Shown here piece after piece: positions 9,352-42,690 of a stretch of DNA of 64,000 nucleotides. The stretch's first letter is position 1. The number at the start of each line of letters is the position of its first letter. The stretch covers positions 79,093 to 143,092 of the forward strand of contig CACBKA010000002.1 of assembly GCA_902539745.1 (NCBI GenBank). The letters run 5' to 3'. The notes beneath the pieces were generated by a model. It searched no databases and was not told the origin of the DNA. It was given only the letters and a program-made list of their open reading frames with translations. Both the position numbers and the translations under genes were made by a program. The DNA is from an uncultured Pelagibacteraceae bacterium (GTDB lineage Bacteria; Pseudomonadota; Alphaproteobacteria; Pelagibacterales; Pelagibacteraceae).

Positions 9352-10814
9352 CAATTAATATCGGTGGTGGAGAATTAAAAGAACTTAAACCTAGAATTTT
9401 AGTTATGGGTGTAGGTGGTGCTGGTGGTAACGCAATTAATGCCATGATCGATGACGGGATGCAAGGTGTAGAGTTTGTGGCTGTAAATACAGATGCACAA
9501 GATTTAAAAAATAATAAAGCTGATGCAAAAATCCAGATTGGAATGAATTTAACAAAAGGTCTTGGCGCAGGTGCAAAACATGATATTGGTCAAGCAGCTG
9601 CAGATGAGTCTCTTAACGAGATAGTTACATATTTGCAGGGTGCTAACATGGTTTTTATAACTGCTGGAATGGGTGGTGGAACAGGCACAGGGGCTTCACA
9701 CGTCATTGCAAGAGCAGCAAAAGAATTAAATATTTTAACTGTTGGAGTTATCACTCTCCCCTTTTCTTATGAAGGTCCAAAAAGAATGAGAAGAGCACAC
9801 GAAGGATGGAGTCATTTAAGAAAACATTTAGATGCATCTATAGTAGTGCCTAATCAAAATCTTTTCAAAATAGCTAATGAAGCTACTACTTTTGAGAATT
9901 CTTTCTTACTATCAAACAATGTTTTGAAACAAGGTGTAAGAAGCATAACTGATTTAATGGTTCGACCAGGATTGATTAACTTAGATTTTGCTGACGTTGA
10001 AACGGTTATGAGTTCTATGGGTAAAGCAATGATGGGAACTGGAGAAGCTGAAGGTGAGAATAGAGCTTTGGCTGCAACTGAGTCTGCATTAAACAATCCT
10101 TTAATTGATGATTATTCTTTAAAGGGCGCTAAAGGACTTTTAGTAAATATTACTGGCGGTGATGACATAAAACTTTTCGAAGTTGATCAAGCTGTTAATA
10201 AAATTAGATCAGAAGTTGACCCTGAGGCAGAATTAATATTTGGTGCAATAAAAGATGAGAGTTTAAGTGGAAAAATGAGAGTTTCTATTGTTGCGACTGC
10301 TCTTGATGGAGAAACTCCCGAGTCAAGATCTGTTGTTAATATGGTTCACAGAATTCATAATAGGAATAGTGGTTACTCAGAAAATAATTTTAGTACAAAT
10401 AATAGCATTCCTGTTTCGCCAAGTTTAGAAACAATTCAGGGTGCAACAGCTTTAAAATTAGATAACGAAATAAAAGCAGAGTTAGAGCCGATCCATGAGA
10501 GCAAACGAGAGGCTACAAGCACAAATGATTTAGAAACTGGAGTATCACTCGATAATGCTTCCTATCTAGAGAACAACATTAATCAAGAGCATACTCATAA
10601 AGATGAAGTTCAAGAGGAAGTAGTTATTGATGATATTTCAATTTATGAGGAAAAACCTACTGAAAATTTAGAGACAAATTCAAACGAAGTCCCCCAATTA
10701 TTTTCTGATGAAGTTAATCCTTCTACTTCATCAGAAGATAATCAAAGTGAAAATCTTAAGAACGAGGAAGAAGAATTCGAGATTCCAGCGTTTTTACGTA
10801 AACAAAAATTTTAA
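9348..10814 (+). CDS. ftsZ: Cell division protein FtsZ
   Basis: ILVMGVGGAGGNAINAMI, FITAGMGGGTGTGASHVIA, NQNLFKIAN, RPGLINLDFADV; C-terminal EFEIPAFLRKQKF conserved tail. ATGA overlap with mraZ. Confidence 0.98.
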   Translation: MTINIGGGELKELKPRILVMGVGGAGGNAINAMIDDGMQGVEFVAVNTDAQDLKNNKADAKIQIGMNLTKGLGAGAKHDIGQAAADESLNEIVTYLQGANMVFITAGMGGGTGTGASHVIARAAKELNILTVGVITLPFSYEGPKRMRRAHEGWSHLRKHLDASIVVPNQNLFKIANEATTFENSFLLSNNVLKQGVRSITDLMVRPGLINLDFADVETVMSSMGKAMMGTGEAEGENRALAATESALNNPLIDDYSLKGAKGLLVNITGGDDIKLFEVDQAVNKIRSEVDPEAELIFGAIKDESLSGKMRVSIVATALDGETPESRSVVNMVHRIHNRNSGYSENNFSTNNSIPVSPSLETIQGATALKLDNEIKAELEPIHESKREATSTNDLETGVSLDNASYLENNINQEHTHKDEVQEEVVIDDISIYEEKPTENLETNSNEVPQLFSDEVNPSTSSEDNQSENLKNEEEEFEIPAFLRKQKF

Positions 10815-10827
10815 AACAGAAGGTAAG

Positions 10828-11841
10828 ATGAAAGATTTTTCATCTCCCAAAAACTTATCACATTTCCCTGTAATGCTCGAGGAAGTATTAAAGATATGCA
10901 ATCCGTCAAAGGGTGGAAATTTTATTGATTGCACTTTTGGATATGGCGGTTACACAAATGCTATATTATCTTATCCCAAAACTAAAGTATTAGCCATAGA
11001 TAGAGACCTAAATACAAAAAAATTTGCCGACATAACTAAAAAAAATTATAAAAACCGTTTTACGTTTCATAACAAAAAATTTAGCGATTTATCAAAAGTT
11101 GCAGATAAAAAAACTAAATTCGATTTTATCGTATTCGATCTTGGGATTTCAACTATGCAGATAATGGATAAAGATAGAGGTTTCTCATTTAATTCAAATT
11201 CAAGCATTGATATGAGAATGGGTCTAAATTCAATATCAGCTCAAGAGGTTGTAAATAGTTTTAGTCAGTCTACATTAAATGACATTTTCAAGTTTTTTGG
11301 AGAAGAAAAAGAAAGCTTCAAAATTTCAAAAAATATTGTAGAAACAAGAAAAAAATTACCAATTAATAATTGTATACAACTTGCAAATATAATTAAAAAA
11401 AGTAAAAAAAGAAATTTTAAAAGTAATATCAATGTATCAACAAAAGCTTTTCAAGCACTGAGAATTTTTGTAAATAAAGAATTTTCAGAATTAATCGACG
11501 GACTTATTGAAGCAACTAAATTAATCAAAATCGGAGGAAAAATTATTGTGATATCTTTTCATTCTCTCGAAGATAAAGTTGTTAAGTTTTTTTTCACAAA
11601 TTATTCTCAGAATAAATCCAAATTTTCAAGATATCTTCCAGATTTATCTAATGAAAAAGTCCTTTTTGAAAAATATAAAAATAAAATACTTACACCCAGT
11701 CAAAATGAGATCAAAAAAAATTATGCTTCAAGATCTGCAAAATTAAGATGTATTACAAGAGCAAAAAATAATTTTTTTTATCCTGAGGATTTAAAAAAAA
11801 AATTCATAAAATATTTAGAAATAGAGGAAAGATATGTTTAA
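10828..11841 (+). CDS. rsmH: 16S rRNA m4C1402 methyltransferase RsmH (MraW)
   Basis: HFPVMLEEVLKICNPSKGGNFIDCTFGYGGYTNAIL...DFIVFDLGISTMQIMDKDRGFSF...SFHSLEDKVVKFFF. Start at 10828; the track ORF extends spuriously into ftsZ. Confidence 0.96.
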   Translation: MKDFSSPKNLSHFPVMLEEVLKICNPSKGGNFIDCTFGYGGYTNAILSYPKTKVLAIDRDLNTKKFADITKKNYKNRFTFHNKKFSDLSKVADKKTKFDFIVFDLGISTMQIMDKDRGFSFNSNSSIDMRMGLNSISAQEVVNSFSQSTLNDIFKFFGEEKESFKISKNIVETRKKLPINNCIQLANIIKKSKKRNFKSNINVSTKAFQALRIFVNKEFSELIDGLIEATKLIKIGGKIIVISFHSLEDKVVKFFFTNYSQNKSKFSRYLPDLSNEKVLFEKYKNKILTPSQNEIKKNYASRSAKLRCITRAKNNFFYPEDLKKKFIKYLEIEERYV

Positions 11842-38218: not shown

Positions 38219-38242
38219 AGGGGCGTTCTGTTGCCAGGTGCC
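38219..38242 (-). repeat. Copy 1 of 24-bp ssrA 3'-end direct repeat (att-like), distal boundary of island
   Basis: AGGGGCGTTCTGTTGCCAGGTGCC, identical to the 3' end of the tmRNA locus at 42386. Confidence 0.93.
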
Positions 38243-38243
38243 C

Positions 38244-39056
38244 TTAACTAATTAACTTTACTAAAGCTACGTATTTAATTTTTTTTTTTTCACAATTGCT
38301 ATTCGCATCTAATCTTTTATAAAACAGCTTTAAGTCAATCACGTTATTTTTTTGTAATTCTTTTAAAGTTTCAAATCCTGCAATAGATTTATACATCTTA
38401 TCGTTTTGATTATCATCTAAAATAATATCATCTACCATTATGTATCCATTTTTATTTAAAAGTTTGATTGAGTTAATTATATCAATACAACATACAGGAT
38501 ATCCATGAGCACCATCTATCCAAATTAAATCATATTTATTATCAGAAAAAATTAATTTAACTGAATTTTTTTCACTATATTTTATATTATTGCTTTTTAA
38601 TAATACTCTATCTCTATTGTTTATAAATGTTTCTAAATTGGAATTTCTACTATAGGTATTTTTAAAATCATTTTCGCTGTGTTTTAAATCTATAGTCTCA
38701 ATTTTTGAATTTTGAAATAATTTTGACAATAGAAAAGCGTTAGCACCATCAAAAGTTCCAATTTCTAATATATTATTTATTTTCGTTTCTGGTTTTAGAG
38801 AAATTGAAGAAAAAAGCACTTCATGCTCTGATGACATTTCTCGATTCAAAAAAGCATATTTTTCTTTTATTTGGTTAAGTTTTTTTTTACCCTCAAATCT
38901 ACTTAAATTTACATTTTCAAATTTTTTATTTTGTTCTGACTCAAAAATATCTTTTTTATATCTGCTTTTTTTATAAAGAAAAATTATCTTACTTAAGATT
39001 TTGAAAGGTATTTTATGCGGAGTTTTTAAATTATGTAATATTGCATTTATCATCAT
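38244..39056 (-). CDS. Class I SAM-dependent methyltransferase (Methyltransf_24-like), cassette 1 cargo
   Basis: NNILEIGTFDGANAFLLSKLFQNSKIETIDLKH, YDLIWIDGAHGYPVCCIDIINSIKLLNKNGYIMVDDI. Start moved to ATGATG at 39056; the track's N-terminus MRFTAPGNRTPLNS is read from the att repeat. Confidence 0.85.
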   Translation of the reverse strand: MMINAILHNLKTPHKIPFKILSKIIFLYKKSRYKKDIFESEQNKKFENVNLSRFEGKKKLNQIKEKYAFLNREMSSEHEVLFSSISLKPETKINNILEIGTFDGANAFLLSKLFQNSKIETIDLKHSENDFKNTYSRNSNLETFINNRDRVLLKSNNIKYSEKNSVKLIFSDNKYDLIWIDGAHGYPVCCIDIINSIKLLNKNGYIMVDDIILDDNQNDKMYKSIAGFETLKELQKNNVIDLKLFYKRLDANSNCEKKKIKYVALVKLIS

Positions 39057-39063
39057 ACTATTG

Positions 39064-39087
39064 AGGGGCGTTCTGTTGCCAGGTGCC
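39064..39087 (-). repeat. Copy 2 of 24-bp ssrA 3'-end direct repeat (att-like)
   Basis: AGGGGCGTTCTGTTGCCAGGTGCC, perfect copy. Confidence 0.93.
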
Positions 39088-39205
39088 GTGAATCTCATTT
39101 CGTTAATCCTTGTTATATAATAATTATTTTACAACCTAAAGCCCAAAACTGGTTCTTCACTGCGTAGGTATTGCGTCAACTGCTTTATCTGTATATTGTG
39201 ATTTA

Positions 39206-40066
39206 ATGAGAAAAATATTGTCATTAATTTTTGCTTCAATTTTTTTTATGTCAGCTTCACATGCTGACCTTGAAAATAGAATATCAGAAATCATTGCAGG
39301 CTGGATACCAGGAGAAGGTATAACTGAAGTCGGAGTTGAATTAAATGATGCAGATAATGATAATATCAATTTTTCAATTCTAGGAGTTCGAAGTATAGAA
39401 AAAACTGATGATTCAAATGTTTTTACTCAATTTAGTTTAAGAAATGAGGAAAAAAATAGCTCAGGAAGATTAACTGGAAATTTAGGTTTTGGTTTAAGAG
39501 AATTAAACGAAGATCAATCTTTTATGTATGGAGCTAATGTTTTTTTAGATGCAGATATATTAGAAGGACATAAAAGATTAGGATTAGGTTTGGAAACTAA
39601 ATCGTCACTAGTGGATTTAAGCACAAATTATTATCAAGGATTAACCAGAATGAAAACAGTTGATGAAACTGAAGAAAAAGTCTTAAGTGGTTGGGACTAT
39701 AATTTAACAACGCAAGTTCCATATCATCCGTGGATTAAATTAAATCTAGAGGGATATAAATGGAAAGCTGAAAAAGCAATTACAGACTCTAAAGGAATGG
39801 TCTATGGATCTGAATTTAATATTAATCCAGTAGTACAATTTAATTTTTCTCTGAATAAATCAAGCAACGAAGGCGTTGAAGATATTTACAAAGCAGAGGT
39901 ATTATTTACTTACCCGCCAAGGGAAAATATTAGAACAATGCAAAACGGTAAATCAGATGTTGCATTTGAAAAGGATAATATGCAGGCAAAACTAACTGAA
40001 AAAGTAAGAAGAAATAATAACTTGGCAGTTGAGATTCAAGGAGCAGTTATTGTAACGAGCAAATAA
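39206..40066 (+). CDS. Inverse-autotransporter (intimin/invasin-like) beta-barrel domain protein, cassette 2
   Basis: Signal peptide (MRKILSLIFASIFFMSASHA) then GANVFLDADILEGHKRLGLGLETKSSLVDLSTNYYQGLTRMKTVDETEEKVLSGWDYNLTTQVPYHPWIKLNLEGYKWK, resembling the IAT pattern GANxFxDxxxxxxHxRxGxGxE...LsxNyY.Lt.w......E....GwDl.....P..P. Confidence 0.75.
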   Translation: MRKILSLIFASIFFMSASHADLENRISEIIAGWIPGEGITEVGVELNDADNDNINFSILGVRSIEKTDDSNVFTQFSLRNEEKNSSGRLTGNLGFGLRELNEDQSFMYGANVFLDADILEGHKRLGLGLETKSSLVDLSTNYYQGLTRMKTVDETEEKVLSGWDYNLTTQVPYHPWIKLNLEGYKWKAEKAITDSKGMVYGSEFNINPVVQFNFSLNKSSNEGVEDIYKAEVLFTYPPRENIRTMQNGKSDVAFEKDNMQAKLTEKVRRNNNLAVEIQGAVIVTSK

Positions 40067-40068
40067 TT

Positions 40069-40785
40069 ATGAAAAAAATAAAAACATTTTTAATTTCAAT
40101 TATATTTACATTTATTTTTTATAGTAATGTTGTTGCTGGAACAGGCGAAGCCACAGAGTATAAAATAAATATATTTAAGATAGAATTATGTGACAGTAGC
40201 AGTACAGCATCAGCGTGCAATGGTGCTGTTACTATTTTTGATGGTAACTCAGGCGATATTGATATTGCTAATACAACTGCTGGAGCAACTGCAGCAAGTT
40301 TAGGAAATGCATCTGCAGCAACATTTGGAATAGCGTATACTTATTTACAGATAACAATGGGTAGAGACTTTACAGTTAAAGGATCTGCGGCTGATGGTAG
40401 TGGAACTACCTGCTATACTAAAAGCAATGGATCAGCAGGAACACTTGCTAAAGGATCAGAAGACTCAGGAGATGAAGCATCGGCAACTTTGTATGCAGCT
40501 GTGAACGGAACAAGTGTTGGTGATAATTTAACTGGGTTACAGACTTTAACAGACACTTCAGGAGTTGCATCAACTATGGATGAAGATGATGAGTTTTTTC
40601 AGTACAGACAACAATTAGCAAATACATTTATTATGGAACCAGGAAATATACCAAGTGTAACTATTGCATTTGGTACTGATAATGCTGTAGGGGCTATTGA
40701 TGATATGGGAGACTCTTGTGAGACAGTTGGTGCTGCAAAAGGATTGTACGCAGCAGAACCTGATGTAACAGTCACTATAGAATAA
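40069..40785 (+). CDS. Secreted Ala/Gly/Ser/Thr-rich protein of unknown function, cassette 2
   Basis: Signal peptide (MKKIKTFLISIIFTFIFYSNVVAG); low-complexity small-residue-rich sequence, Cys-containing; 2 bp downstream of the barrel gene. Confidence 0.7.
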   Translation: MKKIKTFLISIIFTFIFYSNVVAGTGEATEYKINIFKIELCDSSSTASACNGAVTIFDGNSGDIDIANTTAGATAASLGNASAATFGIAYTYLQITMGRDFTVKGSAADGSGTTCYTKSNGSAGTLAKGSEDSGDEASATLYAAVNGTSVGDNLTGLQTLTDTSGVASTMDEDDEFFQYRQQLANTFIMEPGNIPSVTIAFGTDNAVGAIDDMGDSCETVGAAKGLYAAEPDVTVTIE

Positions 40786-40833
40786 TTATTTTACAACTCA
40801 TTGGTCTGATTGTAGCCATTTGTCTTTCGTGAC

Positions 40834-40852
40834 TGTGATCACAGTGTGATCA
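40834..40852. promoter_or_regulatory. TGTGATCACA palindrome plus GTGTGATCA; cassette-end motif, copy A
   Basis: TGTGATCACAGTGTGATCA; AGTGTGATCA starts 64 bp before copy 3 of the repeat (55 bp gap); a similar motif sits at the same distance from copy 4. Confidence 0.5.
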
Positions 40853-40906
40853 AAATTGATCCCGTATCAAATTAGTTAAGCCCGTTACCAGATTATGTAT
40901 TCAAGA

Positions 40907-40930
40907 AGGGGCGTTCTGTTGCCAGGTGCC
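40907..40930 (-). repeat. Copy 3 of 24-bp ssrA 3'-end direct repeat (att-like)
   Basis: AGGGGCGTTCTGTTGCCAGGTGCC, perfect copy. Confidence 0.93.
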
Positions 40931-40992
40931 CTTAAACTTTTAATATTATACAACAATTCTAGATCATAAAAAATGGCATTTTCTCTGCTGGG

Positions 40993-41037
40993 TGAGTCCG
41001 TATTGAGTCCGCCAGTGAGTCCAGATATGATGAGTCC
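40993..41037. promoter_or_regulatory. Four iterated TGAGTCC boxes immediately upstream of the nuclease gene
   Basis: TGAGTCC at 40993, 41004, 41016 and 41031 (spacing 11, 12, 15); last box abuts the ATG at 41038. Confidence 0.55.
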
Positions 41038-41607
41038 ATGAAATCTCTTCAGATAAAATATAATGATTTTAAGAAAAAAAATCTTTCTAAGCCTGGAATT
41101 GGAGAACTCTATGAACGCCAAATACGATACATTTACGAAAAAAATGGTTGGTTAGTTAAACCTTACGGTATTTTAAAAGGTAGATCTGATTTAGGCAGAG
41201 ATCTTCTTTGTTATAAAAAAAAACAAATTCATATCGTTCAAGCTAAGTGTTGGTCCAAAAAAAAAACTATATTCGAAAAGCATATAATGCAGTTAGCTGG
41301 AACTATCCTTCATTATATGAATAAATATAAAAAGAAGCCTAAGGGAGTATTTATAACGACCGCAAAACTTTCACCAACAGCAAAAGACTTTGTTAAAAGT
41401 CTTAATATAAAACATAGCTACATAAAATTAGATAAAAACTTCCCTATGATAAAATGCAATATTAATAAAAGGGGAAAGAAGCTGTTTTTTCTTCCTTTCG
41501 ATAAATTTTATGACCGTGTTCATATTGAAAAAAAGAAAGGCGAGTTCTATACTGATAGTATAAACGAGTGTATCAAAAAGGGATTTAAACATGTCGGAAA
41601 AAACTAA
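41038..41607 (+). CDS. Mrr-like/PD-(D/E)XK restriction endonuclease, cassette 3
   Basis: GIGELYERQIRYIYEKNGWLVKPYGILKGRSDLGRDLLCYKKKQIHIVQAKCWSKKK...KGVFITTAKLSPTAKDF: GRDL...VQAKCW matches D...QxK of the Mrr_cat family. Confidence 0.82.
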   Translation: MKSLQIKYNDFKKKNLSKPGIGELYERQIRYIYEKNGWLVKPYGILKGRSDLGRDLLCYKKKQIHIVQAKCWSKKKTIFEKHIMQLAGTILHYMNKYKKKPKGVFITTAKLSPTAKDFVKSLNIKHSYIKLDKNFPMIKCNINKRGKKLFFLPFDKFYDRVHIEKKKGEFYTDSINECIKKGFKHVGKN

Positions 41608-41929
41608 TATTCTCTATCTTTGTGTGTTAGTCGCAATAAGTGATTATAAGCTTCAGAACGAGGAGACCCATAAGATAATCAAAATCTCAAAAGAACTAAA
41701 AATTGATTTTAATGTTCATAATGCTTTTGAAGAGATACAAAATAAATTCCGAGAGGATTTTGATGCTGCTTGCAATTTTTATCTCAATAATATCACTACT
41801 CCAGAATATCGACAATTAGCTAAAAAATATCTTAAAGAAGTAGCAATGGTCGATAACGATTTAAAAGATAGAGAAGTTAGATTTCTTGTTCTTTGCAAGA
41901 AAGCTTGGGGCAGAGAAGCTTTCGATTAA
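41591..41929 (+). CDS. Small helical protein, possible TerB-like domain, cassette 3
   Basis: NILYLCVLVAISDYKLQNEETHKIIKISKELKID...VAMVDNDLKDREVRFLVLCKKAWG resembles the repeated acidic/helical TerB pattern; overlaps the nuclease gene by 17 nt. Confidence 0.5.
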   Translation: MSEKTNILYLCVLVAISDYKLQNEETHKIIKISKELKIDFNVHNAFEEIQNKFREDFDAACNFYLNNITTPEYRQLAKKYLKEVAMVDNDLKDREVRFLVLCKKAWGREAFD

Positions 41930-42288
41930 TGAAAAAACTTTTAGCGATCGTGGTTCTGGGTTTATTAACAAACAATACTGTTAATGCTGATGAAACATTT
42001 CTTTCTTGTACTTCTGATAGCGGAGGATCAATAACTTTATCATTTGATACTAAAACAAAAATTGGCAAAGAATATGTTGGGGGAGACTCAAAAATAATCT
42101 ACGATTTAAATATCTCGGATGCGAACTTGTTATTTCAAAGATTTTATGAGGGAAGTTTTATTCGAGGATGGAATATTGATAGATATTCTGGCAACGCAAC
42201 ATTAAACAGCACCTTTAACTCTGATCCAAACGATAAAAGTATTAGATCTTATGAATATAATTGTAGGCGAGGCTCGAAAATATTTTAA
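41929..42288 (+). CDS. Small exported protein of unknown function, cassette 3
   Basis: Signal peptide MKKLLAIVVLGLLTNNTVNA; start ATG at 41929 overlaps the upstream stop (TAATG). Confidence 0.65.
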   Translation: MKKLLAIVVLGLLTNNTVNADETFLSCTSDSGGSITLSFDTKTKIGKEYVGGDSKIIYDLNISDANLLFQRFYEGSFIRGWNIDRYSGNATLNSTFNSDPNDKSIRSYEYNCRRGSKIF

Positions 42289-42320
42289 ATTCCCCCCGCG
42301 TACTAAACTTGTCTTTGTTC

Positions 42321-42340
42321 AGTGTGATCATATTGTGATC
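42321..42340. promoter_or_regulatory. Cassette-end motif, copy B (AGTGTGATCATATTGTGATC)
   Basis: AGTGTGATCA at 42321-42330 preceded by GTCTTT, 56-bp gap to copy 4 of the repeat. Confidence 0.5.
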
Positions 42341-42385
42341 TAATTAAAAAAAGTTGTGAATTAATAAGTGTTAACGCCAATACGC

Positions 42386-42409
42386 AGGGGCGTTCTGTTG
42401 CCAGGTGCC
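42386..42409 (-). repeat. Copy 4 of 24-bp direct repeat, at the intact ssrA 3' end
   Basis: AGGGGCGTTCTGTTGCCAGGTGCC; minus strand GGGGCACCTGGCAACAGAACGCCCC can form a terminal stem-loop. Confidence 0.93.
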
Positions 42410-42645
42410 CCAAACCCCGTTTACTTAATTAACAAAGTTAATTAAGCAGCAAGTGCAAATTTATCATTTGCATTTATAATTAGCCCGTTACGTCGGAACC
42501 ATCTCGAACGAAAGAATAGCTTTTAGACACTCGTCGATTCTGATTCACCCCCATAAGTTGTAAATGGTGGAGGTGGTGGGTACTGCCCCCACGTCCGCAA
42601 TGTTTATTACGAAACTCGTTTATCGTCATAGTTGGAAAACCAACA
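42387..42645 (-). ncRNA. ssrA: tmRNA, two-piece/circularly permuted (alphaproteobacterial type)
   Basis: Minus strand: acceptor piece GGACGTGGGGGCAGTACCCACCACCTCCACCA (T-arm and CCA), then intervening segment, then GGGGGTGAATCAGAATCGACGAG (tRNA-like 5' half), tag ORF GCA AAT GAT AAA TTT GCA CTT GCT GCT TAA (ANDKFALAA, 42471-42442), hairpin CTTAATTAAC-TTT-GTTAATTAAG, terminal hairpin. 5' end approximate. Confidence 0.95.
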
Positions 42646-42690
42646 GATATAATATAAAATCAAAAAATAAAGATTCAATAAATATTTCAA

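Follow-up and report, generated by a model that had tools for sequence, protein, structure and literature searches.

Paired 7-base boxes at the ends of integrase-less ssrA cassettes in SAR11 bacteria: a candidate split packaging site of minimal phage satellites

The stretch of DNA analysed here (the window) comprises 64 kb of a Pelagibacteraceae-like (SAR11) genome of 923 kb in 25 contigs, which is approximately 80% complete, and contains an array of small cassettes at ssrA. The permuted tmRNA gene occupies positions 42383–42682 on the minus strand (Rfam alpha_tmRNA, 225 bits, E 6e-65) and was reported by ARAGORN as tmRNA* with the tag ANDKFALAA. The core repeated in the array consists of 23 bp of the ssrA 3' end and occurs in four exact plus-strand copies (GGGGCGTTCTGTTGCCAGGTGCC), at 38220–38242 (copy 1, the left end of the array), 39065–39087 (copy 2), 40908–40930 (copy 3) and 42387–42409 (copy 4), the last being the true ssrA end within the Rfam match. 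A 19-bp ssrA core is absent from the rest of the host genome. The ssrA repeat was present in 239 of the 297 genomes of the family searched, with up to 8 copies each.

Three cassettes are delimited by the four copies. Cassette 1 (38243–39064) carries a Methyltransf_24 gene (Pfam, E 6e-9); cassette 2 (39088–40907) codes for a protein with an inverse-autotransporter beta-domain (IAT_beta, E 5.6e-35) and for a secreted-like protein with a signal-peptide-like start; and cassette 3 (40931–42386) codes for an Mrr-type restriction endonuclease (Mrr_cat, E 5.9e-11), a TerB-like protein (E 5.9e-5, slightly under the cut-off) and a small secreted-like protein. A Pfam profile search of the cassette proteins revealed no integrase in the array. 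A complete phage structural gene set does not occur in the cassettes of the window, as in phage satellites, and the cargo units are bounded by tmRNA- or tRNA-end repeats, as in additive flexible genomic islands. The gene of the secreted-like protein in cassette 3 begins with a 36-bp signal-peptide start (ATGAAAAAACTTTTAGC..., 41928–41963, plus strand) that is nearly identical in unrelated cargo of other cassettes; at the DNA level, this start (MKKLLAIVVLGLL...) is 95–100% identical across many cassettes with otherwise unrelated cargo. It is possibly a recombination joint or a shared signal-peptide cassette.

The initial annotation had pointed out AGTGTGATCA at 40843–40852 and 42321–42330, 55 and 56 bp, respectively, from the GGGG of the core copies at 40908 and 42387, and both positions and distances are correct. 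Only two copies of GTGTGATCA are present on both strands of the window (first-order Markov expectation 0.2), and five of the six occurrences of TGTGATC in the window fall at these two places. The real unit is a pair of TGTGATC direct repeats with an 11-bp period, located at 40834 and 40845 in cassette 2 (TGTGATCacagTGTGATC, 40834–40851, plus strand, –74/–63 from core copy 3) and at 42323 and 42334 in cassette 3 (TGTGATCatatTGTGATC, 42323–42340, plus strand, –64/–53 from core copy 4). The fixed distance of about 55 bp proposed earlier thus matched the second box of one pair to the first box of the other; the boxes occupy a common ladder of positions, offset by one box, or approximately one helical turn. 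The paired motif has two matches in the host genome, both in the array, and is not equally common elsewhere; cassette 1, for which no copy had been seen, indeed lacks box pairs at its ends. An inverted-repeat regulator site, such as that of CRP, is ruled out, because the boxes are direct repeats.

Boxes also occur at the left ends of the two larger cassettes. They read TGCGTAG (39161) and TGCGTCA (39172) in cassette 2 (39161–39178, plus strand, period 11), and four TGAGTCC boxes start at 40993, 41004, 41016 and 41031 in cassette 3 (40993–41037, plus strand). The latter boxes follow TATACAACAATTCTAGA (40947–40963, plus strand), the central motif of the left-end module, which begins 16 bp past core copy 3 and is shared with a site close to the small-terminase gene (terS) of pelagiphages. 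The sequence AATAAGTGTT (42363–42372, plus strand) is located between the right boxes of cassette 3 and core copy 4.

To place these boxes in a wider context, 212 nonredundant flanks of ssrA repeats from Pelagibacteraceae were searched for exact 7-mer pairs, with random segments of the same loci as control. Pairs with a period of 11 were found in 35 left and 28 right flanks, as compared to 3.4 expected, an approximately tenfold enrichment. Period 11 was the only one clearly enriched in left flanks, where the pairs start chiefly at –64 to –66 or –73 to –78, while right flanks were also enriched in period 12 (26 vs 3.2). The letters of the boxes vary by cassette (GTGATC, GAGTCC, GCGTCC, GTGCCC, CCCGTAC, TTCCGAA and others). 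Within a pair the letters agree, and those at opposite ends of a cassette tend to do so as well. In the GTG/GAG family (35 cassettes), the letters of the left boxes covary with those of the right boxes (0 of 5000 permutations, relatedness being ignored), and a permutation test that likewise ignored relatedness gave the same result for the 23 cassettes that have a strict pair at each end. Among 163 cassettes, these 23 compare with 47 that have a strict pair at one end and 93 that have none at either end (control about 2% per end). The GTGATC pairs of the window are one version of a paired 7-base tag that ends many integrase-less cassettes. The suggestion of a shared terminator finds no support in these data, since the letters differ between cassettes while the pairing stays.

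The cassettes combine conserved ends with exchangeable cargo. Their median length is 0.8 kb in the 141 cassettes first compared, and matches to cassette 3 of the window are mostly limited to the left 115–137 bp and the right 60–100 bp. Conserved end modules around unrelated cargo, with boxes at fixed places beside many ssrA repeats, corroborate the earlier proposal of a mobilisation element rather than cargo homology. In cassettes 2 and 3 of the window, left and right boxes differ in letters, indicating that ends have been exchanged between cassettes. Cassette 2 is 97% identical over 1733 bp, left end included, to cassettes in three other genomes (L051, L053 and L055), but its right end is of the GTGATC type and theirs is of the GCGTCC type. 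At L378, an apparently empty cassette without cargo has left boxes joined straight to right-end sequence, which suggests deletions through boxes. The largest cassettes and intervals were considered as possible carriers of an integrase, but that at L179 holds a type I restriction-modification system and that at L200 holds genes of the surface-polysaccharide type. The restriction-modification system (L179:5029–11034), in a 6.4-kb ssrA cassette, is seemingly complete.

The boxes are not confined to ssrA. A scan of 397 genomes with TGTGATCNNNNTGTGATC gave 54 matches in 39 genomes, as compared to 9 matches of the reversed control, and 12 of the matches, in the 30 loci examined, were located away from ssrA. 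Nine of the 14 non-ssrA regions fetched contain 24–50-bp repeats of tRNA-Glu, -Met, -Gly, -Thr or other tRNA-like sequence, often with boxes at both cassette ends. One cassette at tRNA-Glu (L439) has TGTGATCAATTTGTGATC at both ends, and two adjacent cassettes at tRNA-Met (L434) have different boxes, each resembling those of its own partner end. TGTGATC pairs thus occur at ssrA, tRNA-Glu, -Met, -Gly and -Thr; since the same boxes are found at several tRNA genes and differing boxes in neighbouring cassettes, box type is uncoupled from the att core. Arm sites of a single integrase specific for ssrA would not be expected to show such uncoupling, although integrases that differ in core specificity but share arm specificity would also fit.

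SAR11 phages of the HTVC023P group have the left-end module, i.e. TATACAACAATTCTAGA followed by boxes, in the vicinity of their small-terminase gene. The pattern TATACAACAATTCTAGANCA was found in 16 IMG/VR contigs, the majority resembling HTVC023P. Where terS next to the motif was examined, it matches PHROG_51, and terS of L242 shares 92% identity with that of Pelagibacter phage HTVC023P. In HTVC023P, CTAGGAA boxes flank the cognate motif on both sides, approximately 100–190 bp upstream of terS. In a virus whose TerS is 48% identical to that of HTVC023P (L251), the motif lies between GGTGTCCC boxes. In phage 023Pt_psg01, a related motif about 600 bp past terS is flanked on either side by TGTGCCA pairs. 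TGTGCCA, a box type also seen in cassettes, is paired at no other place in the 60 kb of this phage. Some phage contigs read AATAAGTGTTGGTATACAACAATTCTAGA, which comprises the letters of AATAAGTGTT ahead of TATACAACAATTCTAGA. In the window, AATAAGTGTT lies shortly before core copy 4 and TATACAACAATTCTAGA shortly after core copy 3, so that joining the ends of cassette 3 at the core would rebuild the phage site around it. A promoter role of the phage motif is unlikely, because no phage contig with the exact 15-mer has more than one copy of it. A search for PF00589 detected no integrase in 15 of the 16 records, among them three phage genomes deposited as complete, nor, by name, in HTVC023P, HTVC027P, 023Pt_psg01 and the terS-bearing contigs.

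Matches of TGNGNNCNNATTGNGNNCGCCAGTG in IMG/VR were chance matches in GC-rich coding DNA, and those of a 16-bp core pattern fell mostly in unrelated contigs. Eight ssrA core matches in IMG/VR, considered as possible attP sites, turned out to belong to virus contigs with their own tmRNA gene. These contigs (L039–L046, one of 242 kb) have a permuted tmRNA gene with the exact SAR11 ssrA core and the tag ADENLALAA (in one case AKTINADENLALAA).

We favour the explanation, to which we assign a probability of roughly 0.5, that the cassettes are minimal phage satellites in which a packaging site of the pelagiphage type, with helper-specific boxes, is split between the two ends. Joined cassette ends would consist of two boxes, a spacer, the core, a central motif (TATACAACAATTCTAGA in this class) and two to four boxes, a layout that would resemble the box-flanked, HTVC023P-type site near terS with the core inserted. 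The module would act as a packaging-initiation site, its boxes being bound by the small terminase of a helper phage, and the letters of the boxes would select the helper. The DNA packaged and transduced would be that of the array itself or of cassettes after excision or concatenation, with integration supplied in trans. Four elements of this scheme are inferred: the pac or cos nature of the phage site, the binding of TerS to the boxes, the packaging of cassettes and integration in trans. A packaging site would explain the terS neighbourhood, the boxes common to several att sites and the diversification of their letters. The 17-bp motif and the box layout of the cassettes recur at a pelagiphage site close to terS that may serve in packaging. 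Several observations count against a packaging site. The spacers are shorter in the phage sites than in the cassettes, and the IMG/VR scans yielded no phage with GTGATC boxes. Only one left-end class has the 17-bp phage motif, whereas two other classes are without relevant phage match: class a3 had no match in IMG/VR and class a2 a single chance match, and blastn of the window ends and of these two classes against phages returned nothing relevant. In addition, the 93 of 163 cassettes without an exact 7-mer pair at either end, and the differing letters at the two ends of cassettes 2 and 3, are at odds with packaging boxes. The array in the window has no integrase or excision genes of its own, such as those of PICMI and tycheposons.

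The strongest rival, which we consider unlikely on balance, is that the boxes are arm-type sites of tyrosine integrases. Integrase of phage lambda bridges core and arm sites on both arms of its attachment site. Likewise, an integrase would link the core to the box pairs of either arm, box letters would track integrase families, and the cassettes would be nonautonomous relatives of integrase elements, with the integrase acting in trans. Like the arm sites of lambda (P and P'), the boxes are directly repeated at a spacing of about one helical turn (period 11–12 bp) and lie at a fixed distance on both sides of an att core, here 40–90 bp, and the two ends agree. Elements with an integrase do exist at ssrA. 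A 7.5-kb element (L191) has GGTACATAG boxes at both ends and, just inside one end, the gene of a divergent 409-aa integrase (P0001, L191:7979–9208), which has no Pfam or PHROG match at E 0.1; a 9.4-kb element (L220) has ACTTCGTTGA boxes and an integrase (10370–11608) that is 37–38% identical to P0001. Some members of the integrase alignment match Phage_integrase, SAM-like or Int_N profiles at E values of about 1e-3 to 2e-4, and assignment to the tyrosine recombinases is based on these weak profile matches together with conserved R, K, R and Y positions. Boxes of the L191 type end a 1.2-kb cassette (L205) without integrase, and other cassettes without integrase have the left-end boxes of L220. 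For the box types of these two elements, arm sites are the natural reading, and the presence of boxes of the same design at both ends of ssrA elements with an integrase argues against a packaging site, which leaves this equal layout unexplained unless these elements are satellites too. Both elements also carry a serine resolvase and shared genes without assigned function. In the virus contig L257 (5381–7102), a tRNA-like end, TATACAACAATTCTAGA, GAGAGTAAA boxes and an integrase are located side by side; the motif and boxes lie between the tRNA-like end and the integrase, which speaks for arm sites and against packaging, and the arrangement could link the two readings. Four SAR11 integrase loci (L229, L224, L222 and L230), some of them near tRNA genes, have short direct repeats of their own with a period of 11–12 (CTGACACA, TGGCAGACAAC, CTTCTTTGA and TCGTCATTCA, respectively).

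The recombinase arm site suggested in the initial annotation may apply, given the equal spacing of the boxes at both ends of the integrase elements, but fits the GTGATC boxes less well. These accompany at least five unrelated att cores, including those of several tRNA genes, and differing boxes occur at one att site, so that in contrast to lambda arm sites the letters are independent of the att core. The window array lacks an integrase, and the single PF00589 match of the host genome is situated on another contig and has the size seen in nearly all relatives. A relative of P0001, as a cognate integrase for arm sites, was not found in the approximately 80%-complete host genome, and none was found in IMG/VR or phages; integrases of family A1 occur only at L191, L220–L224 and short loci around the same genes. 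Moreover, the motif-and-box module is also found at an intergenic site close to terS in phages for which the PF00589 search gave no integrase.

It is improbable that the boxes are bound by some other factor of the element or the host that lacks core specificity, for example a recombination directionality factor or a regulator that ties excision to infection. Boxes that adjoin the core and are common to different att cores would suit such a factor, but letters that have diversified and yet match at the two ends point to several binding proteins, none of which is encoded in the small cassettes. Shared ancestry, with functionless boxes copied along with the ends by duplication or recombination among cassettes, would account for swapped ends such as that of cassette 2 as compared to L051, L053 and L055 (1733 bp, different right end), but is very improbable, since pairing, period and end agreement persist while the letters change into many unrelated box types, and since the letters covary between ends (relatedness being ignored).

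Related systems are known. Additive flexible genomic islands at tRNA genes, such as fGI-2 of 'Ca. Methylopumilus', are described in the accessible part of PMC10872708 as variable cargo bounded by recurring tRNA 3'-end repeats. The arrays discussed here share the variable cargo between tRNA-type end repeats, but use tmRNA and several tRNAs and have paired-box end modules, of which no description was found in that part of the paper. PICMI are satellites of virulent phages that are packaged as concatemers in helper particles; their excision requires their own int and alpA, and no cos or pac site was identified in the helper (PMC10803314). VEIMEs and tycheposons, named in PMC10803314 and PMC11389934, are other small marine phage satellites. 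Like the cassettes, all of these are integrated, have few genes and lack capsid genes; they travel in helper particles (PICMI) or are proposed to do so. Unlike PICMI, the cassettes encode no integrase, and their median length is 0.8 kb. CALINs (PMC11389934) resemble the arrays as tandem integrase-less cassettes with conserved recombination sites, but the repeats here are ssrA ends, exact in the window, or tRNA ends and presumably not attC sites. No description of paired-box cassettes in SAR11 was found in the open PubMed Central literature, which is weak evidence of novelty.

SAR11 bacteria are among the most abundant bacteria of the ocean and have streamlined genomes. Extended to the whole group, the packaging interpretation would amount, somewhat doubtfully, to a SAR11-wide transduction system, in which integrase-less tmRNA and tRNA cassettes with core-split packaging sites use interchangeable boxes to address helper pelagiphages, the arrays would serve as phage-mobilised gene libraries that include restriction systems, and boxes and terminases would be engaged in an arms race. 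If the boxes are packaging addresses, helper-satellite pairs would be readable from sequence alone, and gene flow of ssrA and tRNA islands, comprising restriction systems and surface proteins, would have a testable vehicle. If they are arm sites instead, the cassettes would represent a large natural set of diversified arm specificities, mobilised in trans. Both readings yield predictions that are testable in cultured HTVC023P-type phages and SAR11 strains.
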